From positions 2,542,594 through 2,606,593 of the forward strand of contig CP073749.1 of assembly GCA_024398055.1 (NCBI GenBank): a stretch of DNA of 64,000 nucleotides, in the 5' to 3' direction. The notes beneath the pieces were generated by a model. That model had not been told where the DNA came from and did no database searches. It saw only the letters and a list, made by a program, of their open reading frames with translations. This document shows positions 12,980-30,913 of this stretch, one piece after another. The stretch comes from a bacterium SCSIO 12741 (lineage in GTDB: Bacteria; Bacteroidota; Bacteroidia; Flavobacteriales_G; Salibacteraceae). The translations under genes were made by a program, and so were the position numbers. How positions within the stretch are numbered: position 1 is the first letter of the stretch; every line of letters begins with the position of its first letter.

Positions 12980-13089
12980 AAAGGTCGGCGACTACCTACT
13001 CTCCCTCGAAAGAAGTACCATCGGCGCAAGTGGGCTTAACTGCTCTGTTCGGAATGGTAAGAGGTGATCCCCACCGCCATAGTCACCGT
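12980..13089 (-). rRNA. rrf: 5S ribosomal RNA
   Basis: The minus-strand sequence begins GGTGACTATGGCGGTGGGG and holds the universal 5S stretch with CCATTCCGAACAG and TTAAGCCCACTTGCGCC. About 110 nt, normal for Bacteroidetes. The ends are placed by the closing helix (GGTGACTA near the 5' end, TAGTCGCC near the 3' end) and are good to a few bases. Confidence 0.93.
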
Positions 13090-13202
13090 AAATCGTTTGA
13101 CTTAGCGTCAGTATTTTAATAACACACTGGACGTTTTGAAGAGAGGCTAAATAAAGGAGTTACAAGAACCCAGATCTTAGCTTATAGAATATTTCGCTGC
13201 GA

Positions 13203-16070
<2,868 letters not shown>

Positions 16071-16399
16071 TCCGCAATTGGCGATATATCCTAAAGCCTT
16101 GATCTAATTGTTTTCTTGTTACTCGTTGTTTTTACTTAGCTTCTCTCTTCTTTCGTCCAATATGTCAAAGAACTTCTTGTTTAGCAGCTTCCCTCTCTGC
16201 GCCTATAACTCCGTGATGTGTAAGAAAGAATAGAGTTATTGATCACTTCCTGAGTAAGCCTTTCTAACGGCTAAACTAAAAGTTGAATTACAAGGAATCG
16301 AACCTTGTTGTTTGCACCAGCAAATTCTGTTATTTAAAGAACATTCGTTGTTTGATTTATCATCTCACAACCTATTCGGCCATCTTTAATGACCTTTTG
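16071..16399 (-). other. 16S-23S spacer, part between tRNA-Ala and 23S
   Basis: About 330 bp with no gene. It contains two boxA-like antitermination motifs on the minus strand (GTTCTTTAA at plus 16334-16342, GTTCTTTGACA at plus 16163-16173). It also contains an isolated hairpin at 16290-16308 that looks exactly like a tRNA T-arm (stem ACAAGG/CCTTGT, loop TTCGATT). The remaining sequence probably forms the processing stem of 23S. Confidence 0.6.
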
Positions 16400-16472
16400 T
16401 GGAGAATATCGGAGTCGAACCGATGACCTCCTGCGTGCAAGGCAGGCGCTCTAGCCAGCTGAGCTAATCCCC
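16400..16472 (-). tRNA. tRNA-Ala (anticodon TGC)
   Basis: 73 nt without encoded CCA. It starts GGGGATTAGCTCAGC, has the anticodon loop CTTGCAC (TGC) and the T-loop TTCGACT, and ends CTCCA. It lies in the 16S-23S spacer, as usual. Confidence 0.97.
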
Positions 16473-16548
16473 GGACAATCAGTATCGAGTTTGAGTTCGA
16501 GTGCGAGGTTTTCCTCGTTCTCTTTCTCTTATCTCGCTGCTGAGATTG

Positions 16549-16622
16549 TAGTCCCGGGCAGACTTGAACTGCCGACCCCTACATTATCAGTGTAGTGCTC
16601 TAACCAGCTGAGCTACGGGACT
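16549..16622 (-). tRNA. tRNA-Ile (anticodon GAT)
   Basis: 74 nt. It starts AGTCCCGTAGCTCAGC, has the anticodon loop CTGATAA (GAT) and the T-loop TTCAAGT, and its acceptor stem AGTCCCG/CGGGACT is perfect with discriminator A. First tRNA of the spacer. Confidence 0.97.
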
Positions 16623-16757
16623 CTAAAAAGAGTGTAACCCCTCCGGTGGGAGCTTGGCTCACTCTGCACCAAAATTTTAAAAAGTTAAATAAGCACCAGA
16701 CAGCTCTTTCATTGGAATTCATTGTTCTTATCCTTTTTGAAAGAGTATTTGTCTCTA

Positions 16758-18277
<1,520 letters not shown>

Positions 18278-18521
18278 TATAAAAGTGTTTAAAACTGACT
18301 CCCTCAAGAAATCGATAAGAGAATCCTAATGATTCGCTATCTAGTGCTATTCAACTTTTTCAAAGAACTTCTTCTGATTCGAAAACCAGAAATGTTCACT
18401 TATATCAATCTACACAACCCTTTCTCTTCAATTCAATTCTCTCGCCTCAATCAATCTCTCAATCTTCAGCTGTGTTGTGTGTCTTAATCTTTCGTAGAAC
18501 GTTTCCCCTTAAACGGGCCGG
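18278..18521 (-). promoter_or_regulatory. rRNA operon leader with boxA-like motif
   Basis: About 240 nt between promoter and mature 16S. A boxA-like GTTCTTTG (plus 18361-18368, minus strand) is placed where NusB/S10 antitermination signals are expected. The rest should pair with spacer sequence to form the 16S processing stem. No ORF. Confidence 0.5.
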
Positions 18522-20448: not shown

Positions 20449-21459
20449 TCAGTACAGATCATTTTTTACAATCCGGTCCATCAGTTTAGTTAGTTCTTGC
20501 TGCACTTTTCCGAAGTATTGATTCCTCTCCTTTTCACGGGTGTTGCTTAGGTTTATGGATTTCTGAATTTGGGCATGGAACCAAAAGTCCATTTCGTCGC
20601 AAAATTCGGGATCGGTTGTGGTGGTGAAGTTGAAGTAAGCGAAGCTTTGGAAGAATATTTTTCTTTCCGGTTGAACGAGAAGAGCTGAATTCTCCATGAC
20701 CAATAGCTCATTAAAATAGAGCTCATATGGGATGTTGGTCAACTTTACCGGATCATTGGGGTGAATCTTGCAATTATAGACGGCTTGCTTTTCGATCACT
20801 TCAAACAGGGCCTTGTACTGCTCGCAGATGTTTAGGGCGGTTTGTTTGTTTCGGATCAATCGAGCATCAAAATAATATTCCAACTGTCTAATAAAATTGA
20901 GAACTGCTATTTCGGACCAAATCTCAATTCCTGGAATTTGAGAAAAACTGTCCATCATACCCTTCCATTGATCCTGAAAGAAGTCGATAAATTCTTCTGG
21001 TCTGAAATGTTTATTCTCTTCATTCAACGCTCCAACCGAGTTGAGCCAGGTGAATACCTTGAAGGCAGCTAAGTCGGGATAGGCAAAATGATAAAGTACC
21101 GGAATGTCTTTGGTGGAGTAGTACACACGACCATCAGGAAATTGGAGTTGGGCTTTCATCATCATTAACATGTCGCCCAAGTTGGTTTTAATATCCTCTA
21201 AGTTTCGAATGATTTTTCTCCGAGAAAAAGGAATGGCAACATCCTCTTTGGGAGCTGAGGGAAAAACCTGGTACTTTTCGTTGAGAATGGCGGCTTCTTC
21301 AAAAGACAAGTCACTTTTACCGTTCATTCTGCGGTAAGCACCATGGATGCTAATTCCCAAATTTTGAGCTAAAACTTCCGATAGTTTCTGATTATCAGGA
21401 ATAATTTGTTCCAATCGAGCTAAAAAAGCCAATTGATTTTCCTTCGATTTTGATGTCAT
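20449..21459 (-). CDS. Helix-turn-helix regulator-like protein
   Basis: 336 residues. The N-terminal about 65 residues read as an HTH (LSEVLAQNLGISIHGAYRRMNGKSDLSFEEAAIL), close to XRE-type helices with one insertion. The rest is helical, hydrophilic and without a recognised domain, with a cluster of aromatic residues (RQLEYYFDARLI, FFQSFAYFNFTTTTDPEF). Proteins with this plan occur across Bacteroidetes and are annotated only as HTH proteins. An imperfect 18-bp inverted repeat 34-90 bp upstream of its start could be its own operator. It converges with the DUF3667 gene (10 bp apart). Target unknown. Confidence 0.65.
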   Translation of the reverse strand: MTSKSKENQLAFLARLEQIIPDNQKLSEVLAQNLGISIHGAYRRMNGKSDLSFEEAAILNEKYQVFPSAPKEDVAIPFSRRKIIRNLEDIKTNLGDMLMMMKAQLQFPDGRVYYSTKDIPVLYHFAYPDLAAFKVFTWLNSVGALNEENKHFRPEEFIDFFQDQWKGMMDSFSQIPGIEIWSEIAVLNFIRQLEYYFDARLIRNKQTALNICEQYKALFEVIEKQAVYNCKIHPNDPVKLTNIPYELYFNELLVMENSALLVQPERKIFFQSFAYFNFTTTTDPEFCDEMDFWFHAQIQKSINLSNTREKERNQYFGKVQQELTKLMDRIVKNDLY

Positions 21460-21492
21460 TCGCGATTAGGGATTACTTATTATCAAAAAATA

Positions 21493-21549
21493 TTTGCAAA
21501 AATCGCAATCAATCGTGTGATCGAGTTCAAAGATTGCGAAAAATGCAAA
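21493..21549. promoter_or_regulatory. Imperfect inverted repeat, candidate operator of the HTH gene
   Basis: Left arm 21493-21510 (TTTGCAAAAATCGCAATC) and right arm 21532-21549 (GATTGCGAAAAATGCAAA) match in their outer 6 and inner 8 bases, with an A-tract/T-tract mismatch in the middle. It lies 34-90 bp upstream of ATG 21459, where an autoregulatory site would be expected. Confidence 0.4.
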
Positions 21550-21704
21550 ACCCTCGGTTACGAAATTTGAGACTTTCATCCACATGGGGGAGAAATGTCG
21601 TCCGGCATGATGCAATCCTTGCGAGAAATGAGATTGATCATTTGGCCATAGAGCTGATGGTGATTTGTGCAAATCGAATCGCCCCTAATTATTCAAACCT
21701 TTGA

Positions 21705-21836
21705 CCTGTACCCATCGATGATGGAGAAGGGAAAATACCTACTGGGATCATAGACAATGCTTGGCTAAAGCCCTTCCCGTTCTTCCATCTTCGATTTTAT
21801 GACGACAAGCTGGGCCCAATTAGCCAGGAATTGTAA
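21705..21836 (+). pseudogene. Short coding remnant, possibly aldose-1-epimerase-like
   Basis: 43 codons with no start codon and a TAA end. The translation begins PVPIDDGEGKIPTGIID and ends FYDDKLGPISQEL. The segment (I)PTG followed by a PF.FF stretch recalls the GalM motif region (PVD..IPTG ... TPFDF). It is too short to be a gene and may be coincidence. Confidence 0.25.
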
Positions 21837-21837
21837 G

Positions 21838-21866
21838 ACTCGGAGCTTAAAAGCTCTGAGTTTTCA
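21838..21866 (+). terminator. Terminator-like hairpin before the OleD-like gene
   Basis: ACTCGGAGCTT pairs with AAGCTCTGAGT (one internal mismatch) and is followed by TTTT. It may end an upstream transcript or act as an attenuator for the operon starting 62 bp later. Confidence 0.5.
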
Positions 21867-21927
21867 TTCCATTTGATTCGACACCGAAAGGGAATGTCAT
21901 CACGTAAATCCCTTTAATTCAGATAAA

Positions 21928-22950
21928 GTGAAATTGGAAAACCATAACAAGAGAACGATTTTAATCACGGGAGCTACAGGTTTCTTGGGATCTCGAATCG
22001 TGGAGTACTTTGCCGGCTCAGGTGAATTCGATCATTTGATCGCAACCGGCCGAAAGTTCTCTTCCAACAATCGGGTGGATCATTCCAAGGTCAAGTATGT
22101 ATTGGGTGATTTGTCAGACCGATCTTTTGTGGAATCCCTCTTTTTGCAAAACATCAGCGTGGTGGTCAACTGTGCAAGCCTTTCGTCTCCATGGGGAGAG
22201 GAGGAGGCTTTTTACTCAGCAAATGTGAAAACACAGGAGCATTTGATTGCCATGAGTGAAGTGGCGGATGTAGAGCGCTTCGTTTATATATCTACTCCGG
22301 GTATCTATTTCAACTTTCAGGATGCGATGGGATTGGTAGAGGATTCGCCTTTGCCACAGAAAATGGTAAATGCCTATGCCGAAACTAAGTGGAAGGCGGA
22401 GTGCCTTTTGCGAAAATCCAATTTACCCTTTGTGATTCTGCGCCCCAGAGGATTAATCGGTCGTGGAGATACGGTAATTATGCCACGATTGGTGAGGGCT
22501 TGTGAAGAAAAGCGATTAAAAATGGTGGGGGATGGTCGCAACGTGGTGGACTTAACATCGGTACTTAATATGGTACAAGCGGTGGAACTTGCCATCAAGA
22601 CTCCGCATGTCAATGAATCGTACAACATCTCTAACGGTGAACCGGTGAATTTATGGGATTCGATTTTTTCAGTTTTAGAAGCTATCGGAATTCCAAAGCC
22701 CACCAAGCGCATTCCATATAAAGCTTTGCTGTGGATTGCTGGTTTGCTTGAATTTAAAGCCCGAGTGTGGGGTGGGCGTGAGCCAGTATTAACCAAGTAC
22801 TCGGTTGGCGTATTGGCTACCTCCTTCGTTTTTGATATTCGAAAGGCTCGGGAAAAACTGGGTTATCGTCCGACACAAACCACAGCAGAGGCGATGAATG
22901 AATTTGTTCAATGGTATTTAGCAAAACAACATGGTAGAAGTAAAGTTTGA
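21928..22950 (+). CDS. OleD-like NAD(P)-dependent epimerase/dehydratase (extended SDR)
   Basis: 340 residues, first gene of the five-gene operon. Rossmann motif GATGFLG (15-21), catalytic Ser122 in YISTPGIYF, and YAETK (Tyr150, Lys154). The C-terminal half (PRLVRACEEKRLKMVGDG, VVDLTSVLNMVQA, YNISNGEPVNLW) follows the 3-beta-HSD/OleD pattern closely as I recall it. OleD reduces the beta-ketoacid made by OleA to a beta-hydroxyacid. By analogy this enzyme would reduce the product of the FabH/OleA-like protein at 25013. GTG start, as no ATG fits. The 3' end overlaps the next gene by 20 bp. A nucleotide-sugar epimerase is the alternative, but no sugar genes are near. Confidence 0.8.
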   Translation: MKLENHNKRTILITGATGFLGSRIVEYFAGSGEFDHLIATGRKFSSNNRVDHSKVKYVLGDLSDRSFVESLFLQNISVVVNCASLSSPWGEEEAFYSANVKTQEHLIAMSEVADVERFVYISTPGIYFNFQDAMGLVEDSPLPQKMVNAYAETKWKAECLLRKSNLPFVILRPRGLIGRGDTVIMPRLVRACEEKRLKMVGDGRNVVDLTSVLNMVQAVELAIKTPHVNESYNISNGEPVNLWDSIFSVLEAIGIPKPTKRIPYKALLWIAGLLEFKARVWGGREPVLTKYSVGVLATSFVFDIRKAREKLGYRPTQTTAEAMNEFVQWYLAKQHGRSKV

Positions 22951-23758
22951 ATTGAGATCGGCAGGTTATTGCGAAGCCAAAGAATCACAGGCTTTGAGAG
23001 GTAGGCCCAATAATCCCATGAAGTTTTATGCTACCTATGCTCACATTGAACATCCGGTTCATGGACACATCCTATTTGATACGGGATATACCCGCCGTTT
23101 TTATGAAGGCACTCAAGAACTTCCTTTAAAGATATACGCCAACGTCACTAAGGTTTTCATCACCGAGGAAGAAGAGGCGAAAAATGCGCTGCAAGAAAGT
23201 GGCATTGATCCAGCCGCAATTAAGTACATAATTGTATCCCATTTTCACGCCGACCATATCGGAGGCCTCAAGGATTTTCCTAATGCTCAATTTATTTGCT
23301 CCAAGGAGGGCTTTGAAGATGTGATTGGAAAAACGGGCTTCTCTGCTTTGAGAAGAGGCTTCGTTCCTAACCTCCTTCCCGATGATTTTTCGGAAAGAGC
23401 TCATTTCGTTTCCTTCGATCGAGCCACCAAGAAGGTATATGGTCTGGGCAATGTGATTGATTTTTTTGGGGATGATTCTCTGATAATCTGTCGGCTTAAC
23501 GGACACGTCAAAGGGCAAATTGGTCTCTTGCTTCAAGCGGAAAAACGGATACTGCTTATTTCTGACGCTGCCTGGTTGACGGAGAATTACAAAGACCTGC
23601 ATCTGCCCAGCCCCATGGTGCGGTTGTTTTTTCATTCCTGGCGTGCCTACAAAGAGAGTCTTTACCGTGTTCATGCCTACCACAAGAGGAATCCGGAAAC
23701 TGAGATTATCCCCTGTCATTGCGAACAAACCTTTAGAAGGATAACCGGAAAAACATGA
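22931..23758 (+). CDS. MBL-fold metallo-hydrolase, AHL-lactonase-like
   Basis: 275 residues with a complete dinuclear zinc site: HFHADH (His104, His106, Asp108, His109), His192 in NGHVKGQ, Asp212 in SDAAW and His263 in PCHCE. The N-terminal HPVHGHILFDTGYTRRF strand and the spacing of ligands resemble the N-acyl-homoserine-lactonase branch of the superfamily. No signal peptide, so cytosolic. In the operon it occupies the place where Ole clusters carry the OleB alpha/beta hydrolase. A lactone or thioester substrate from the same pathway is a reasonable inference. It overlaps its neighbours by 20 bp and 4 bp (ATGA). Confidence 0.85.
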   Translation: MVEVKFELRSAGYCEAKESQALRGRPNNPMKFYATYAHIEHPVHGHILFDTGYTRRFYEGTQELPLKIYANVTKVFITEEEEAKNALQESGIDPAAIKYIIVSHFHADHIGGLKDFPNAQFICSKEGFEDVIGKTGFSALRRGFVPNLLPDDFSERAHFVSFDRATKKVYGLGNVIDFFGDDSLIICRLNGHVKGQIGLLLQAEKRILLISDAAWLTENYKDLHLPSPMVRLFFHSWRAYKESLYRVHAYHKRNPETEIIPCHCEQTFRRITGKT

Positions 23759-25035
23759 AACTATCCAAACCAGCCATCATCAAACACTTCCTAACCTTTC
23801 GCCTTTCTCGTCTCATGAGATCGAATTGGGTTGGATCAGCCAGGAAGAAAACATGGAAGAAAAACCTTTCGAGGTCACCTTTCTATAGTTCTCTTGTATC
23901 CTCGGGTGAATTTCCATTGATGAATAAGGAGCTCTTTATGGAGAACTTCGATTCTATCAATACGGTGGGAATAAAAAAGGAAGAAGCTTTTGCCCTTGCT
24001 CAAGAAAGTGAAAAATCCAGGGATTTTGCTCCAGCCATTCGGGGTATTAGTATCGGTCTTTCATCCGGAACCAGCGGAAATCGTGGAATATTTTTAACCA
24101 GTAAGCGGGAGAAGGAGTTATGGGTAGCAGCCGTTTTGGATCGGGTGATTGGAATTTCCTGGAAGAAACGGAAGGTAGCCTTTTTTCTTCGAGCGAATAA
24201 TAACCTCTATGAAGCGGTCCAATCCAGATTACTGGCCTTTCATTTTTTCGATATCAAGATTCCTCTAACCAACCACTTTCCAAATCTGATAGATCTGGAT
24301 CCTGATATTTTGGTAGGGCAGCCTTCTGTACTGGTCGCCCTGGCTCAACATTACGTGCGAATTGGAAAGAAGGCGGACTTTACGAAGGTTGTTTCAGTGG
24401 CTGAAGTCTTGGAAGAAGATCAACGAGATTTTTTGACTCAGGTTTTTGGGTGCAACATAAGTCAGGTCTATCAATGTACCGAAGGCTTTTTGGCATACAC
24501 CTGCCGGGAAGGGCACTTGCACCTAAATGAGGATTGGCTGGAAATTGAAAAAAGGTATTTGGATGATTCGAAGACTCGTTTTCATCCCATCATTACCGAT
24601 TACTTAAGAAGCTCTCAACCTGTGGTTCGGTATGAACTCAACGACATATTGCACGAAGGACCACCCTGCAGTTGCGGTTCGAAATCGACAGTACTGAGTA
24701 AAATCGAAGGTCGATCGGATGATGTTTTTCGATTTGAACAAGGAAATGCGGCTGTCGATATTTATCCGGATTTCATTCGAAGATCGGTCCTGTTGGCTTC
24801 TGAAGATATCGTCAACTACCGGGTAACCCGAATAGGTGAAAAAAAACTGAGCGTATTTCTGGAGGTGTTAAAGCCAGAAAAGCGGGAAATGCTATTTCAA
24901 CGGGTGCAAAAAGAATTGAAAGTCCTGTTTTCCACTTATGGAATAGAGGGCATGGAAATAATTAAAGCGGATTTGAATCACAATCCAATGAACAAATTCA
25001 AAAGGGTGAAAAATGAATATTCAAAGAACGTTTAG
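23755..25035 (+). CDS. F390-synthetase/PaaK-like adenylate-forming enzyme
   Basis: 426 residues, shorter than acyl-CoA ligases of the FadD type. The ATP-binding P-loop is LSSGTSGNRG (102-111). VYQCTEGFLAYTC is the A5-like region. PVVRYELNDILHEGPPCSCGS carries the Cys-rich turn typical of the phenylacetate-CoA-ligase/F390-synthetase branch, and GRSDDVFRF the A8-like hinge. The C-terminal lid ends NHNPMNKFKRVKNEY with the catalytic-type Lys. It would activate a carboxylate as acyl-AMP. In Ole pathways OleC uses adenylation to close a beta-lactone; this protein is from a different subfamily but could take that place. Coupled to both neighbours (ATGA upstream, 23 bp overlap downstream). Confidence 0.82.
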   Translation: MKLSKPAIIKHFLTFRLSRLMRSNWVGSARKKTWKKNLSRSPFYSSLVSSGEFPLMNKELFMENFDSINTVGIKKEEAFALAQESEKSRDFAPAIRGISIGLSSGTSGNRGIFLTSKREKELWVAAVLDRVIGISWKKRKVAFFLRANNNLYEAVQSRLLAFHFFDIKIPLTNHFPNLIDLDPDILVGQPSVLVALAQHYVRIGKKADFTKVVSVAEVLEEDQRDFLTQVFGCNISQVYQCTEGFLAYTCREGHLHLNEDWLEIEKRYLDDSKTRFHPIITDYLRSSQPVVRYELNDILHEGPPCSCGSKSTVLSKIEGRSDDVFRFEQGNAAVDIYPDFIRRSVLLASEDIVNYRVTRIGEKKLSVFLEVLKPEKREMLFQRVQKELKVLFSTYGIEGMEIIKADLNHNPMNKFKRVKNEYSKNV

Positions 25036-26014
25036 CATAAAAGGGGTAGGGAAATACCTGCCGAAAACCTCGGTGCATAGTCACGAGATTGAAGATGAAT
25101 TGGGCTTGCCCAAAGGATACATCTATAAAAATGTGGGTGTAGAGGTGCGTCATAAAGCTCGGGTAGAGTCAAATTCCTACATGGGAGAGCAGGCGTTGAG
25201 GGCCGCATTGGCCGATGCCAACATGACCATCGGCGATATTGATTGCCTTATTGGAGCCTCAGCTACATTCGACTACATCATTCCGAATCGGAGTTCGATG
25301 ATCAAACATCAATTTCCGGAAGCAAATAGCCTTGATTTTCCCTGTATTGATATCAATACGGTTTGCACCAGTTTTATCTCTGCTCTGGATTATGCCTCTT
25401 TTTTACTCTCTACCGGGACCTATAAGAATGTAGCTATCGTCAGCTCTGAGCGCAGCTTGAAGGGATTGAACCCAGATGATGCTGAAACATTCGGCCTTTT
25501 TGGAGATGGTGCGGCAGCTGTTATTCTGAATTCGGCCAGAGAAGGGGGATTGATCAAACACTCCTGGAAGACCTATAGTGAGGGTGCGAAGTACACCATT
25601 ATTGAAGGGGGCGGAAATGAGAATCATCCGCAGGAGGTTCCTTACGATTCATCGTTGTACTCCTTTAAAATGCAAGGTAGCAAGTTGCTCAAGTGTGCTA
25701 TGGAAACTTTGCCCCGATACCTCAAGGATTTTTTTGGGAAGTTGAATCTTTCTTTACCCGATGTTGATCTCATCGTTCCTCACCAAGCCAGTAAACTGGG
25801 GTTGCGTATGTTGGCATCTTTGAATAACGGTTCTTCGCACAACATTTTTGACCATCTCGCTCATCATGGAAACTGCATTGCGGCATCGATTCCCATTGCT
25901 TTGGTGACGAGCATAAAGAATCAGAGACTTAAGGAAGGGGATACTTGTTTTCTATTGGGTACTGCTGCCGGAGTTTCGATAGGTGGATTACTCTTTAAAT
26001 ATACCCGGACATGA
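25013..26014 (+). CDS. FabH/OleA-like 3-oxoacyl synthase III (thiolase superfamily)
   Basis: 333 residues. Catalytic triad Cys118 (DINTVCTSF), His257 (VPHQAS) and Asn287 (HHGNCIA), with FGDGAAAVIL and the terminal glycine-rich LGTAAGVSIGGLLF loop. All features for Claisen condensation are intact. The N-terminal half is diverged from housekeeping FabH (GLPKGYIYKNVGVEVRH, IGASATFDYIIP). It sits in an operon without ACP or other fab genes, which favours a dedicated role like OleA, joining two acyl chains. Start ATG 25013 lies inside the preceding gene, and the stop overlaps the next ATG (ATGA). Confidence 0.88.
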   Translation: MNIQRTFSIKGVGKYLPKTSVHSHEIEDELGLPKGYIYKNVGVEVRHKARVESNSYMGEQALRAALADANMTIGDIDCLIGASATFDYIIPNRSSMIKHQFPEANSLDFPCIDINTVCTSFISALDYASFLLSTGTYKNVAIVSSERSLKGLNPDDAETFGLFGDGAAAVILNSAREGGLIKHSWKTYSEGAKYTIIEGGGNENHPQEVPYDSSLYSFKMQGSKLLKCAMETLPRYLKDFFGKLNLSLPDVDLIVPHQASKLGLRMLASLNNGSSHNIFDHLAHHGNCIAASIPIALVTSIKNQRLKEGDTCFLLGTAAGVSIGGLLFKYTRT

Positions 26015-27153
26015 ATTTGGTATTGGCCAATGGAATGCTGCTCGTGCTGGTCTTAGTAGAGTTGGGCTTTCTTCTATTTGTCCGGAAAGAAAAGGTCCCT
26101 TGGAAAGAGGTGGTCTTTAACCTAAATAGTGGTCATATATTTATGTGGGTTCTCCGTGGAATAGAGATTTCGGCTTTTCTATTCATTGCCAAGCACTGGA
26201 GTTTTTCCTGGATTGAAAGCTGGCCTTATGTCTTGAAATGGGTATTTGCTTTTCTTGCCTGGGATTTTTGTTTTTACTGGCTTCATCGACTTCATCATAA
26301 ATTTCCGTTGCTTTGGGCGGTACACGTTGTCCATCACGAAGGAGAGCATTTTAGCTTGTCGCTCGGCATTCGAAATTCCTGGTATTCCTCCCTAACCTCA
26401 CTTCCCTTTTTTGTGGCACTCGCCTTGATCGGAGTTCCGGTGGAAATTTTCATTGCTACTTCAAGCATTCATTATTTTATTCAATTCTACAACCACAATC
26501 GGGTGGTAGGGAAGAGCGGTTGGTTAGAGAAAATCATGATTACTCCCTCCCATCATCGGGTGCACCACGGAAAAAATCCGGAGTACTTGGATCGGAATTT
26601 TGGCGGAACTCTGGTGATTTGGGATAAGCTCTTTGGAACTTTTCAGGCCGAGATAAATTCTGTGCCCATTGAATTTGGTGTGAAGGATTATAAAACCAAT
26701 TACAATGTCCTTTGGGCAAATAACCTGCCCTTCTTCAAATTGTTGGGGATTAGAAACGAGAACGGTAAGCCCCAATCCTTCATTTATCGGGTATCGGATT
26801 ACTTGATCGGAACGGGTGGGCTTTTACTTTTTGGCCTGCTTCTATTCTACATTTCCATTGAAGGTAGGGTACCTGTAATTGACCAGGCGGGATTATTTGC
26901 CATCATCTTTTTAGGAACAATTGCCTTAGGAGGAATGTCTGAAGGAAAATTATGGGGGCTGTCTATTTGGGGATTCGTTTTTGGAATCCTATTTCCAGCC
27001 CTTCTTTTCTACCAGCAAATTTCCGATGCCATTCTCTGGGTGCTTTCCGGACTAATGGTCATTCACAGTTTAGTCACCGTGATTACCACCAGCAAGTATC
27101 CGATTGGAGAATTGCCTTCCCAAAAAATGGATGAATCTAATATTCTGCCTTAG
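26011..27153 (+). CDS. Sterol desaturase/fatty acid hydroxylase family membrane protein
   Basis: 380 residues. The three histidine boxes of membrane di-iron oxygenases are intact: HRLHH (92-96), HVVHH (105-109) and HHRVHH (181-186). Membrane helices lie near 5-24, 48-62, 74-91 and 130-150. After the catalytic part (to about 250) there is an extra C-terminal membrane unit of about four helices (270-365), found in one branch of this family. The enzyme would hydroxylate or desaturate a lipid with O2. As the last gene of the operon it probably modifies the condensed product. Its stop overlaps the convergent purL stop by 4 bp (TTAG). Confidence 0.87.
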   Translation: MNLVLANGMLLVLVLVELGFLLFVRKEKVPWKEVVFNLNSGHIFMWVLRGIEISAFLFIAKHWSFSWIESWPYVLKWVFAFLAWDFCFYWLHRLHHKFPLLWAVHVVHHEGEHFSLSLGIRNSWYSSLTSLPFFVALALIGVPVEIFIATSSIHYFIQFYNHNRVVGKSGWLEKIMITPSHHRVHHGKNPEYLDRNFGGTLVIWDKLFGTFQAEINSVPIEFGVKDYKTNYNVLWANNLPFFKLLGIRNENGKPQSFIYRVSDYLIGTGGLLLFGLLLFYISIEGRVPVIDQAGLFAIIFLGTIALGGMSEGKLWGLSIWGFVFGILFPALLFYQQISDAILWVLSGLMVIHSLVTVITTSKYPIGELPSQKMDESNILP

Positions 27154-30100
27154 GCGTTCGTTTCAACCCAGCTGCGTGCATTCACAAAGGCTTCGATCCA
27201 AGGGCTCAGCACATCATCGCGCTGATCTGCTGGGTAATGAGCCCAGTTCCATGGAAATACCGATCTCTCGAAGTGAGGCATAATGGATAGGTGTCTACCA
27301 TCGGCACTGGCAATTCCAGCAGCGTGGTAGTCAGATCCATTTGGATTCCCAGGATAGCCCGTGTGGCTGTACTTGGCAATGATGTTGTAATCTGCTTCCG
27401 ACTGTGGAAGGTCAAAATTCCCTTCACCGTGAGCTACCCAAATTCCAAGGCGCTTTCCAGATAGAGATCCAAGCATTACGGAATTGTTTTCGGGAATGTC
27501 TACGTTTACAAAACCAGATTCAAATTTTCCGGATTCGTTGTGCAGTAGCTTCGGATGATTTTCATGATCTGGATACAAAAGCTCCAATTCATTCATCAAT
27601 TGACAACCGTTGCAAATTCCAAGAGACAGGGTGTTCGGACGGGCATAGAAATTATCCAGAGCCTTTTTTGCTTTTTCATTGTGCAAGAATGCTCCTGCCC
27701 AACCTTTCGCTGAACCGAGTACATCTGAATTCGAGAATCCACCAACAAATGCGATGAAGTTGACATCCGAAAGATCTTCAGCTCCCGAAATCAAATCAGT
27801 CATGTGAATGTCTTTCACATCAAAACCGGCCAGGTGCATGGCATAGGCCATTTCCCGATCACCGTTCACACCTTTCTCACGAATGATAGCGGCTTTAACT
27901 CCAGTTTTATTTTTACGATCTGGATCTAAGCCAAGAACGTCGTATTGCCCTTTGAAATCTGCTGGGAAGCGGAATTCCAAAGCTTGGTTTTTATAGTTGT
28001 TGAAACGCTCAGTAGCCAATGATTCTCCACTCTGCTTCTTGTCTAACAGATGAGAAGTTTTGTACCAAGTGTCTCTTAAACTTTTAATGTCAAAGCGGTA
28101 GTCGTTGCCTTTGGTTTTTATCGCTACTTCACTTCCGGCTTGATAGCTTCCTGCTTTGTACCAGGTCGCATTAATCTGATTCAATGTTTCACTTACGGCA
28201 TCCATCTGAGCCGCATCTACTTGAATCAGGATTCCTGCTTTTTCAGAGAACAACAATTGAATGTCGTCACCAGCAGGAATTTCGGATAGGTCTAAGTTCC
28301 AACCTGAATTTGTTTCAGCAAAAGTCATTTCGAGCAAAGCGGTAATCATACCTCCAGCTGAAATATCATGACCTGCCAGGATTTTTCCTTCGCTAATCAA
28401 CCCTTGAACCGCATTGAACGTGGCTGCAAATTTCTTAGCATCCAAAATGGCAGGAGCTTGAGAACCAATTTTATTAACTACCTGAGCGAAACTACTTCCA
28501 CCCAATTTGAAATCGTCTTCTGAAAGATCGACATAGATTAAGCTGGATCCTTCAACAGGCTGAACAACCGGTTCTACGATTCGTCTCAAATCAGAAACTT
28601 CACCCACAGCACTGATAATTACTGTACCTGGAGCGTATACCGTTTCGTTCGGGTATTTCTGAGCCATGGAAAGAGAATCCTTTCCGGTTGGAATATTGAG
28701 TCCCAACTCACAAGCAAAATCACTTACTCCTTGAACAGCGTCGTATAGTCGGGCATTTTCACCTTCATTTTTGGCAGGCCACATCCAGTTTGCACTAAGC
28801 GATACTCCTTTAATCCCATCTTGGATAGGAGCCCAAATCAAATTGGTAAGGGCTTCGGCAATGGATGCTTGAGAACCCGCAATCGGATCAATCAAAGCTG
28901 ATACTGGAGCGTGCCCGATAGAAGTTGCAATTCCTTTCTTTCCGCGGTAATCCAAAGCCATCACTCCCACATTATTCAGAGGAAGTTGGATAGGACCAGC
29001 TGTTTGCTGTTTGGCAACGCGACCGGTTACGCAGCGATCTACTTTATTGGTCAACCAGTCTTTACAAGCTACAGCCTCCAATTGCAAAACAGCATTGAGG
29101 TAAGTAGAGAGTTTTTCGGCCTGGTAGCTTACCGCATCAAAATTGCTGGCTTGGCGCTTATCTTCCAAAATGGTTTTAGGCGATGAGCCAAACATGTGGG
29201 TGAGATCCCAATCCATCGGATTGGTGCCACTTTCTTTATTTTCAAATCGGAACTCGTGTTTTCCGGTAGTTTCTCCAACTACGTAGATTGGAGCACGCTC
29301 ACGAGTTGCAATTTTTTGAAGCAATTCAAGATCCTCTTTTTTGAGGATAAGTCCCATTCGTTCCTGAGACTCGTTGCCAATAATTTCTTTGTCAGATAGA
29401 GTAGGGTCACCAACAGGAAGTTTCTTTACGTCAATGATTCCACCGGTTTCTTCCACCAATTCAGACAAGCAGTTCAAGTGTCCACCAGCTCCATGGTCAT
29501 GGATGGATACAATCGGATTCTTCTCCAATTCGGCCATGGCTCGAATGGCGTTGTAAACCCGTTTTTGCATTTCCGGATTCGAACGTTGAATGGCGTTTAG
29601 TTCAATACCACTGGAAAATTCACCGGTAGCTACTGAAGACACAGCTCCACCTCCCATTCCAATGCGGTAGTTGTCTCCACCCATAACTACGATTTGATCG
29701 CCAGCATCTGGAGTATCTTTTAAGGCTTCTTGCTTTTTACCGTATCCAATTCCACCGGCCAGCATGATTACCTTATCAAATCCGAATTTCTTTTCGCCTT
29801 CTTCGTGTTCAAAGGTGAGTACCGATCCATTAATCAACGGCTGGCCAAACTTGTTTCCAAAATCGGAAGCACCATCAGATGCTTTAATCAGGATATCCAT
29901 CGGAGTTTGGTACAACCATTTTCTCTCATCCATGTTTTCCCAGTTCCGGTCATTTTCCAGGCGGGAATAGGAAGTCATGTATACGGCGGTTCCGGCCAAA
30001 GGCATAGATCCTTTTCCACCGGCCATTCTATCGCGAATCTCTCCACCACTTCCGGTTGCAGCCCCGTTAAAGGGCTCAACGGTTGTTGGGAAGTTATGGG

Positions 30101-30842
30101 TTTCCGCTTTGAGCGAAATCACAGAATCAAATTCTGAGGTAACGAAAGTGGAAGACTCATCTTGGCGCTCAGGGGCGAATTGCTCGGCTTTGGGTCCTTC
30201 GATAAAGGCTACATTGTCTTTGTAGGCGCTAACAATTCGATTCGGATTTTCGGCCGAGGTTTTCTTGATCAGTTTGAATAGAGAAGAAGGCATTTCTTCA
30301 CCGTCGATGATAAACTGACCGTTAAATATTTTATGACGGCAGTGCTCTGAATTAACCTGGGAGAATCCAAAGATCTCGCTATCGGTCAATTTTCTGCCCA
30401 GTTGTTCAGCTACATCACGTAGGTAGGCAATTTCTTCGCCGCTAAGGGCCAGCCCTTCCTGCTTGTTGTAAGCTTCAATATCTTCAATATACTCAACCTG
30501 ATCAGGCTGCTTGTCAATGGTAAACAGGGATTGATCCAGGTTTTGGTAGAGAACTTCCAGCATCGGATCATGGTCTGCCGATTCATTTTCCACCTGAAAG
30601 AATTCTTCAATTCGTTCGATTCCTTCAACACCCATGTTTTGGGTAATTTCAACTGCATTGGTACTCCAAGGGGTAATCATCTCCCGGCGTGGGCCTACAA
30701 AAAAACCTTCTACCGTTTCGGTATCGAGGGGAGTAGCATTTCCAAAAAGCCAGGTGAGTTTGGAGAGGTCGGCTTCTGATAATTTTCCGGAGAGACCCAC
30801 TGCGTAAAATTTAGTGGAATCGGAAGCGAAGAACTGAATCAT
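27150..30842 (-). CDS. purL: Phosphoribosylformylglycinamidine synthase
   Basis: 1230 residues from ATG 30842 (MIQFFASDSTKFYAVG). An upstream in-frame start at 30884 would add 14 residues (MILRDRKQGK...) and is less likely. This is the large single-chain purine enzyme converting FGAR to FGAM with glutamine and ATP. Visible parts are an N-terminal PurS-like region, two AIRS-type halves (SEHCRHKIFNG, ETHNFPTTVEPFNGAATGSGG, GGDNYRIGMGGGA, HDHGAGGHLN), and a C-terminal glutaminase with the nucleophile in LGICNGCQLMNEL and a later His/Glu pair (MPHFERSVFPWNW). Full family length. A TACTTTTG element lies about 70 nt upstream. Confidence 0.97.
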   Translation of the reverse strand: MIQFFASDSTKFYAVGLSGKLSEADLSKLTWLFGNATPLDTETVEGFFVGPRREMITPWSTNAVEITQNMGVEGIERIEEFFQVENESADHDPMLEVLYQNLDQSLFTIDKQPDQVEYIEDIEAYNKQEGLALSGEEIAYLRDVAEQLGRKLTDSEIFGFSQVNSEHCRHKIFNGQFIIDGEEMPSSLFKLIKKTSAENPNRIVSAYKDNVAFIEGPKAEQFAPERQDESSTFVTSEFDSVISLKAETHNFPTTVEPFNGAATGSGGEIRDRMAGGKGSMPLAGTAVYMTSYSRLENDRNWENMDERKWLYQTPMDILIKASDGASDFGNKFGQPLINGSVLTFEHEEGEKKFGFDKVIMLAGGIGYGKKQEALKDTPDAGDQIVVMGGDNYRIGMGGGAVSSVATGEFSSGIELNAIQRSNPEMQKRVYNAIRAMAELEKNPIVSIHDHGAGGHLNCLSELVEETGGIIDVKKLPVGDPTLSDKEIIGNESQERMGLILKKEDLELLQKIATRERAPIYVVGETTGKHEFRFENKESGTNPMDWDLTHMFGSSPKTILEDKRQASNFDAVSYQAEKLSTYLNAVLQLEAVACKDWLTNKVDRCVTGRVAKQQTAGPIQLPLNNVGVMALDYRGKKGIATSIGHAPVSALIDPIAGSQASIAEALTNLIWAPIQDGIKGVSLSANWMWPAKNEGENARLYDAVQGVSDFACELGLNIPTGKDSLSMAQKYPNETVYAPGTVIISAVGEVSDLRRIVEPVVQPVEGSSLIYVDLSEDDFKLGGSSFAQVVNKIGSQAPAILDAKKFAATFNAVQGLISEGKILAGHDISAGGMITALLEMTFAETNSGWNLDLSEIPAGDDIQLLFSEKAGILIQVDAAQMDAVSETLNQINATWYKAGSYQAGSEVAIKTKGNDYRFDIKSLRDTWYKTSHLLDKKQSGESLATERFNNYKNQALEFRFPADFKGQYDVLGLDPDRKNKTGVKAAIIREKGVNGDREMAYAMHLAGFDVKDIHMTDLISGAEDLSDVNFIAFVGGFSNSDVLGSAKGWAGAFLHNEKAKKALDNFYARPNTLSLGICNGCQLMNELELLYPDHENHPKLLHNESGKFESGFVNVDIPENNSVMLGSLSGKRLGIWVAHGEGNFDLPQSEADYNIIAKYSHTGYPGNPNGSDYHAAGIASADGRHLSIMPHFERSVFPWNWAHYPADQRDDVLSPWIEAFVNARSWVETNA

Positions 30843-30913
30843 AAATCGTATTGTTTTTCCTTGTTTTCTATCCCGAAGGATCATACAACGAATACGTCTG
30901 TTTTTAGAAGAGG

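Follow-up and report, generated by a model that had tools for sequence, protein, structure and literature searches.

In a window of 64,000 nucleotides from the bacterium SCSIO 12741 (Bacteroidota, Salibacteraceae; contig CP073749.1, positions 2,542,594 to 2,606,593), five overlapping genes at positions 21928 to 27153 comprise a conserved four-gene cassette and an accessory hydroxylase gene. From these genes we infer, with a probability of about 0.5, a stand-alone lipid pathway of patchy distribution, including its reactions, their order and its product, in which four core enzymes are joined by exchangeable tailoring genes. The gene content of the cassette, its intact catalytic residues, its conservation and its co-inheritance are established by the results below. 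Judging from the genes, the probable role of the cassette is to produce a hydroxylated fatty acid and to decorate it. The operon is arranged as follows.

21460..21927, + strand: intergenic stretch of 468 bases 5' of the operon in the map of open reading frames (ORFs), presumed promoter region
21928..22950, + strand: extended, NAD(P)-dependent short-chain dehydrogenase/reductase (SDR), OleD-like ketoreductase; first core gene (PF01370 and OleD models)
22931..23758, + strand: metallo-beta-lactamase (MBL)-fold hydrolase, AttM/pyridoxolactonase-like; core gene (Lactamase_B match)
23755..25035, + strand: adenylate-forming enzyme (ADE) of family TIGR02304, PaaK fold; hallmark gene of the core
25013..26014, + strand: beta-ketoacyl-acyl carrier protein synthase III (KAS), FabH/MxnB-like condensing enzyme; core gene (FabH family)
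26011..27153, + strand: di-iron membrane enzyme of the fatty-acid-hydroxylase/sterol-desaturase family (FAH); accessory tailoring gene (PF04116)

All five ORFs are intact, lie on the + strand and overlap by 20, 4, 23 and 4 bases in turn, which bears out an original prediction, made from the letters alone, of five genes coupled by overlaps of 4 to 23 bp. That prediction took the operon for a variant of the Ole (olefin/beta-lactone) pathway that keeps the chemistry of OleA and OleD, replaces OleB and OleC with unrelated families and adds a membrane oxygenase.

Conservation and distribution of the cassette

The analysis covered 34 loci with a strong TIGR02304 relative (denoted by L numbers), namely, 16 loci over the curated cut-off in genomes of the window's phylum, 7 of the 61 matching records of a plasmid collection and all 11 matches in a collection of named genomes. 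SDR, MBL, ADE and KAS genes occurred together in 28 of the 34 loci (13/16, 6/7 and 9/11 by source), where L033 was counted as complete although a contig end cuts its SDR. The neighbourhood conservation that the original prediction expected was thus found for four genes, which form the core; its five-gene unit did not hold, the hydroxylase being an accessory present in 6/34 loci. Among the incomplete loci, L043 lies at a contig edge, L040 holds fragments with no KAS found, and no KAS was found in L027 or L042. L049 and L050, both counted among the 34, are second ADE copies that stand alone, no partner lying closer than about 6 kb. Residue counts excluded L049 and L050 (over the cut-off) and L051 and L052 (under the cut-off and outside the 34), all of which are partnerless.

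The order SDR-MBL-ADE was observed in all 31 loci where these three genes were found, although the SDR of L027, at 4.6 kb upstream, may be a different gene. The KAS gene heads the cassette in the Bacillota and Pseudomonadota loci and also in L064 and L066; in Fusobacterium and the remaining complete Bacteroidota loci it stands last. By record label, complete cassettes occur in four phyla, namely, Bacteroidota, Bacillota, Pseudomonadota and Fusobacteriota. No KAS was found in L042, the locus from Campylobacterota. The tree distances of the four core proteins correlated with one another (r = 0.63 to 0.83), and none of 2000 permutations reached any of the six values. This test of co-inheritance covered 24 complete loci out of 28, leaving aside L033, with its cut SDR, and three near-duplicates (L037, L041 and L048).

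TIGR02304 was found over its cut-off in 1/35 genomes of the family, 2/42 of the order, 9/395 of the class and 6/247 of the phylum, with the own genome included in each. Conservation was assessed locus by locus and not via close relatives because TIGR02304 is rare at all these ranks; a conserved neighbourhood at family level was rejected, as only 1 of 35 family genomes carries TIGR02304 over the cut-off. Since the KAS tree mostly follows phyla, the patchy occurrence may reflect loss as much as transfer.

Some records are of interest in their own right. The Brevibacillus invocatus locus (L040, 6976-9476) has SDR, MBL and acetyltransferase fragments and an ADE, with no KAS found, and resembles a decaying cassette. 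The Fusobacterium vincentii 'plasmid' (L030) of 2.1 Mb and the Escherichia coli KE48 'plasmid' (L028), with narGHJI and purU, resemble mislabelled chromosomes or pieces of them.

The condensing enzyme

The window KAS belongs to the FabH family, and its top model was PRK07204/NF005541 (309.9 bits, below the cut-off of 402), a model whose name, 'beta-ketoacyl-ACP synthase III', specifies no pathway. Each of the four cassette KASs scanned had NF005541 as its best model. The Pontibacillus protein (L026) passed its cut-off (444.9 against 402), and scores below 402 were obtained with the window (309.9), E. coli (333.4), Fusobacterium (303.1) and L045 (237.3) proteins. The window KAS missed the cut-offs of the FabH models TIGR00747 (183.7 against 292.1 bits) and NF006829 (199.2 against 249 bits).

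The catalytic Cys, His and Asn are present in 29/29 cassette KASs, three near-identical pairs among them, and the intact triad predicted for the window protein was accordingly found. At the position of OleA Glu117, none of the 29 has Glu (Ile in 23, Leu in 5 and Val in 1), and OleA has Glu in the same alignment. Although the cassette KASs resemble FabH in fold, catalytic triad and clear homology, the HQxN motif of FabH is replaced by HQxS in all 29, and Arg249, the carrier-docking residue of FabH, is found in none. According to the excerpt available of one study, Glu at this position is the proposed base in OleA, where Glu117 reaches the partner monomer, and the loss of Glu abolished the activity of PpyS (PMC4578411). 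Hydrolysis of p-nitrophenyl hexanoate is described, in an excerpt of another report, as an OleA trait not found in FabH (PMC7064751).

Compared by sequence with solved structures, the window KAS scored 171 bits with MxnB, 170 with CorB, 133 with FabH and about 48, over partial length, with OleA. These results do not support the claim that OleA chemistry is kept. In a comparison using the predicted structure of the KAS (mean predicted local distance difference test score [pLDDT], 82.9), MxnB gave a Z score of 38.5 (root-mean-square deviation [rmsd] 2.0 over 303 residues), Aquifex FabH 37.6 (2.3 over 301), CorB 37.4 (2.3 over 305) and the best OleA 35.1 (2.5 over 300). By this model, MxnB and Aquifex FabH are tied as structural neighbours, being within 1 Z. 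MxnB and CorB, of myxopyronin and corallopyronin synthesis, share with the cassette KASs the Cys-His-Asn triad, an aliphatic residue in place of Glu and HQxS, and with the window KAS also a GNC (or ANC) motif.

In phylogenetic trees, the FabH references and the genome's own FabH formed a clade separate from the cassette KASs with support of 98.1/100 (98.8/98 in the tree with own_L055), so that the synthase does not fall within housekeeping FabH. A second KAS III with FabH residues is encoded elsewhere in the same genome. MxnB and CorB were placed weakly on the FabH/OleA side (80.7/53 and 88.2/42), outside the cassette KASs; this placement, which was not firm in three trees that included only one OleA, speaks against a close kinship of the cassette KASs with MxnB. 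In the larger KAS tree the long branch own_L053 attracted L031, and a later tree omitted own_L053, own_L055, L030, L037, L041 and L048. The KAS tree mainly follows phyla, with support of 94.4/91 for Bacillota plus Pseudomonadota and 98.8/95 for Bacteroidota.

The reductase, hydrolase and adenylate-forming enzyme

The window SDR matched the Epimerase family (PF01370). The NCBIfam OleD models NF042422 and NF042423 were its top models (165.3 and 161.5 bits, both below the cut-off of 580), and the model of the hopanoid epimerase HpnA gave 115.5 bits. The SDRs of three other loci scored 154 to 270 bits with their best OleD model. OleD models outscored sugar-epimerase models in 4/4 SDRs scanned; by these model scores (no SDR tree was built), the enzyme does not sit among the sugar epimerases, and the OleD-like SDR proposed for the coupled lipid operon is upheld. 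The YxxxK motif of extended SDRs is kept, with Y150 in 31/31 and K154 in 30/31 aligned loci and a gap in one.

The window MBL protein matched Lactamase_B, and its top model was the AttM-type lactonase model (78.1 bits, below the curated cut-off of 390). The zinc ligands, HxHxDH-H-D-H, are invariant at five positions in 31/31 proteins, with one Gln at H109 and one gap at H263. In acyl-homoserine lactonases (AttM/AiiA), the Tyr following the bridging Asp is catalytic. The corresponding position, 215, is occupied by Trp in 30 of the 31 MBL proteins and by Tyr in one, and lactonases still ranked first in the profile search despite this Trp.

The window ADE is a full member of TIGR02304, 'F390 synthetase-related protein' (420.5 bits; cut-off 251.9), a family that has a name without a known function and whose model covers one protein, not the cassette. 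Its predicted structure (mean pLDDT, 83.0) fitted PaaK1 (Z 26.5, rmsd 4.0 over 373 residues), and Foldseek and profile searches likewise placed it as PaaK-like. By these predictions, the ADE is a PaaK-type adenylate-forming enzyme. The ATP loop, the YQ.TE motif, D297, R320 and K414 are kept in 32/32 proteins, apart from a Ser/Thr exchange at one loop position (22 Ser, 10 Thr). The closest named relatives of the window ADE, with 61-63% identity, are from Flavobacteriaceae, Marivirga and Saprospiraceae. The ADE alone also exceeds the TIGR02304 cut-off in the Deinobacterium control genome. Second TIGR02304-like copies (L049, L050 and L051, with 270, 252 and 236 bits, respectively) were seen in three genomes of the window's phylum and have no SDR, MBL or KAS partners.

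Accessory genes

The 380-residue window FAH matched FA_hydroxylase (PF04116) with 101.5 bits (cut-off 31). Nine of ten tested positions in its His motifs are invariant in 6/6 sequences, and the tenth is Leu in one. It shares the FA_hydroxylase domain and the His motifs with OlsE-type lipid hydroxylases, but differs from OlsE in its length, in its score (76 bits against a cut-off of 475) and in that its relatives stand beside the cassette. An FAH gene adjoins the cassette in the window, Marivirga L033, L063, L064 and E. coli L028, and divergently in L066; L032, whose contig ends 58 bases past the KAS gene, was not judged. At E <= 1e-50, FAH relatives were found in 2/295 class genomes (the own genome and G514), in both cases inside the cassette. 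FAH is an accessory, but apparently one dedicated to the cassette.

Other genes accompany the core elsewhere. ATP-grasp relatives were found in nine loci (L025, L026, L036, L039, L041, L042, L044 and L068, and L027 at a distance of 2.3 kb), and a relative of the PF13480 acetyltransferases in L025, L036, L039, L041, L044 and L068, with a weak match in L042 and a fragment in L040. Sulfotransferase domains adjoin the core in L043, L064, which also has an APS kinase, and L067; in Paracoccus L029 a sulfotransferase lies on the opposite strand. In addition, a Rieske oxygenase is present in L068, and an alpha/beta hydrolase is encoded a few genes downstream in L067. Eight of 30 neighbouring proteins scanned had no Pfam match, several belonged to families not evidently linked to lipids, and several complete loci are without any recognised tailoring gene, all of which argues against a uniform tailoring pattern. 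In the loci that have them, these accessory genes suggest a core product that bears a carboxyl and a hydroxyl on a chain and that would be decorated lineage by lineage.

The cassette in E. coli

The E. coli version consists of seven genes, namely, the core four and genes for a PAP2 protein, a hydroxylase of the sterol-desaturase family and an acyl-CoA desaturase.

L028, 4125-11006: seven-gene E. coli cluster
L072, 5001-11882: seven-gene E. coli cluster

This 6.9-kb cluster was found in 672 of 5426 complete E. coli genomes, 671 of which have at least 80% of it; 671 sites are chromosomal and 2 are on records labelled plasmids. In the two records viewed (Nissle 1917 and KE48), the cluster is flanked by narI and purU. 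In Nissle 1917, where tyrosine tRNA genes are annotated, it occupies the gap from narI to these genes. The same gap in K-12 MG1655 is without the cassette and contains only ychS, rttR and tpr. The names of cassette-bearing E. coli include Nissle 1917, Seattle 1946 and O25b:H4-ST131, which we take to be members of phylogroup B2.

Proposed pathway and alternative explanations

In the proposed pathway, KAS would load an acyl chain on its Cys and form one C-C bond by Claisen condensation. Its partner would most likely be of the decarboxylating malonyl or beta-ketoacyl type, because KAS keeps Cys-His-Asn and has no counterpart of the residue with which OleA deprotonates a plain acyl chain. The OleD-like SDR would then turn the beta-ketone into a beta-hydroxyl, the MBL enzyme would hydrolyse the thioester (or a lactone) and free the hydroxy acid, and the PaaK-type ADE would convert this acid to an acyl-adenylate for the formation of a CoA, amide, ester or lactone. 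In the window version, the membrane di-iron FAH would hydroxylate the chain. A single round of condensation is expected, because the core includes no acyl carrier protein (ACP), dehydratase, enoyl reductase or acyltransferase. The likeliest product would be a beta-hydroxy lipid acid, activated for transfer and then tailored.

Several observations weigh against this lipid pathway. At least one core gene is missing from 6 of the 34 loci, a malonyl-ACP partner is not assured because FabH Arg249 is missing from all the KASs, and many neighbours in other loci match families without an evident lipid role (RtcB, RNase PH/Ham1, SUKH, DUF4143 and HNH among them). Furthermore, the MBL protein is nearest to acyl-homoserine lactonases and pyridoxolactonase; lactonases, not thioesterases, score closest. 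This last affinity and the patchy distribution would suit a diffusible signal, hydroxylated or lactonised, that the lactonase-like MBL tunes or recycles. We consider such a pathway improbable, given the Trp in place of the lactonase-type Tyr in 30/31 MBL proteins and a score far below the lactonase cut-off (78 against 390); the membrane-type accessory enzymes would also suit a lipid better. That housekeeping genes are adjacent by chance is hardly credible. KAS is indeed a member of the FabH superfamily and SDR an epimerase-family protein, but the set is kept together in 28 of the 34 loci, which already contradicts chance, and the genome has its separate KAS III that groups with the FabH references.

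Two readings start from the condensing enzyme. KAS might, in the manner of MxnB and CorB, join two beta-ketoacyl chains into a pyrone, a butenolide-like ring or a branched beta-diketone, which SDR and MBL would reshape. MxnB and CorB are its closest solved structures by sequence, MxnB heads the structural list in a tie with Aquifex FabH, and MxnB and CorB likewise have no Glu, carrying Val instead according to an excerpt of a published study (PMC4578411). This reading is nevertheless unlikely, since our trees set MxnB and CorB, if weakly, apart from the cassette KASs, and one published tree has them inside the FabH clade (PMC4578411, in excerpt). MxnB and CorB join two polyketide chains delivered by large polyketide synthase systems, as described in an excerpt of a further report (PMC5724707).

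To our knowledge, MxnB and CorB have no SDR-MBL-ADE partners. In a true Ole-type pathway, KAS would join two plain acyl chains head-to-head like OleA, SDR would reduce the product, ADE would form a beta-lactone like OleC, and MBL would open or decarboxylate it in place of OleB. Like OleABCD, the operon has a condensing enzyme, an OleD-like reductase, an adenylate-forming enzyme and a hydrolase, so that each Ole step has one functional counterpart; SDR is nearest to OleD, HQxS is common to the cassette KAS and OleA, and L067 has its alpha/beta hydrolase gene. We regard this pathway as distinctly unlikely, because Glu117 is missing throughout the cassette KASs, OleA is distant in sequence (about 48 bits against 171 for MxnB) and lies 3.4 Z below MxnB in structure, and the five genes of the operon gave no match to an alpha/beta hydrolase. 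The cassette further differs from Ole in that its KAS is closer to MxnB and FabH, its SDR scores far below the OleD cut-off, its ADE is PaaK-type, its hydrolase has the MBL fold and tailoring genes are present in some loci. The presence of authentic ole genes elsewhere in the genome was rejected, as the window SDR was the sole OleD-model match at E <= 1e-20, below the cut-off, and none of five PRK09258 matches reached its cut-off, no search having been made for OleB or OleC. The structure matches listed for the ADE do not include OleC, an absence that excludes nothing; OleC belongs to the same broad adenylate-forming superfamily. The original prediction that OleB and OleC are replaced by unrelated families is therefore right for the hydrolase, the fold of which differs from that of OleB, and wrong for the ADE. 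As a whole, the variant-Ole reading stands in its OleD-like SDR, its condensing enzyme and its conserved unit, and is not supported as regards the chemistry of OleA.

With respect to the stand-alone lipid pathway, it is tempting, if rather speculative, to go further. The product may be a bacterial lipid of a class not yet described, and its four-enzyme route may be an old one that follows the Ole logic (condense, reduce, release, activate) with separately assembled enzymes, in at least four phyla and about 1 in 8 complete E. coli genomes, with lineage-specific tailoring of head group and chain. If so, a lipid class would have been overlooked even in such well-studied organisms as E. coli, of which the probiotic strain Nissle 1917 carries the cassette. 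The question is directly testable in a tractable E. coli strain, and the window version represents a compact five-gene form.

A description of the cassette was not found in the open full-text literature, a search outside which most subscription journals lie. The available excerpts of three papers contain matches by annotation name only, namely, an F390-synthetase-annotated gene in a fatty-acid cluster of Desulfotalea (PMC2649909), a gene called 'Coenzyme F390 synthetase' among the tabulated transposon mutants of Pseudomonas syringae pv. actinidiae (PMC9823363) and an Acinetobacter gene with the same name (PMC5501837).

Surroundings of the operon

No TAnnTTTG promoter motif was found in the stretch upstream of the operon (21460..21927). 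On the other side of this stretch, 468 bases from the operon, lies a divergent gene for a 336-residue protein (20449-21459, - strand). Neither Pfam nor NCBIfam gave a match to this protein at E 0.01, and its N-terminus appears helix-turn-helix-like by eye. As it has no relative among the other fetched loci, the gene was rejected as a conserved divergent regulator. Downstream, a gene for a 1244-residue protein (27150-30884, - strand) is convergent with the FAH gene, with an overlap of 4 bases, and resembles a fused FGAM synthase (PurL), as judged by eye only. A complete rRNA operon (16S, tRNA-Ile, tRNA-Ala, 23S and 5S) occupies 12983-18278 on the - strand, and several ORFs listed in that region must be spurious.

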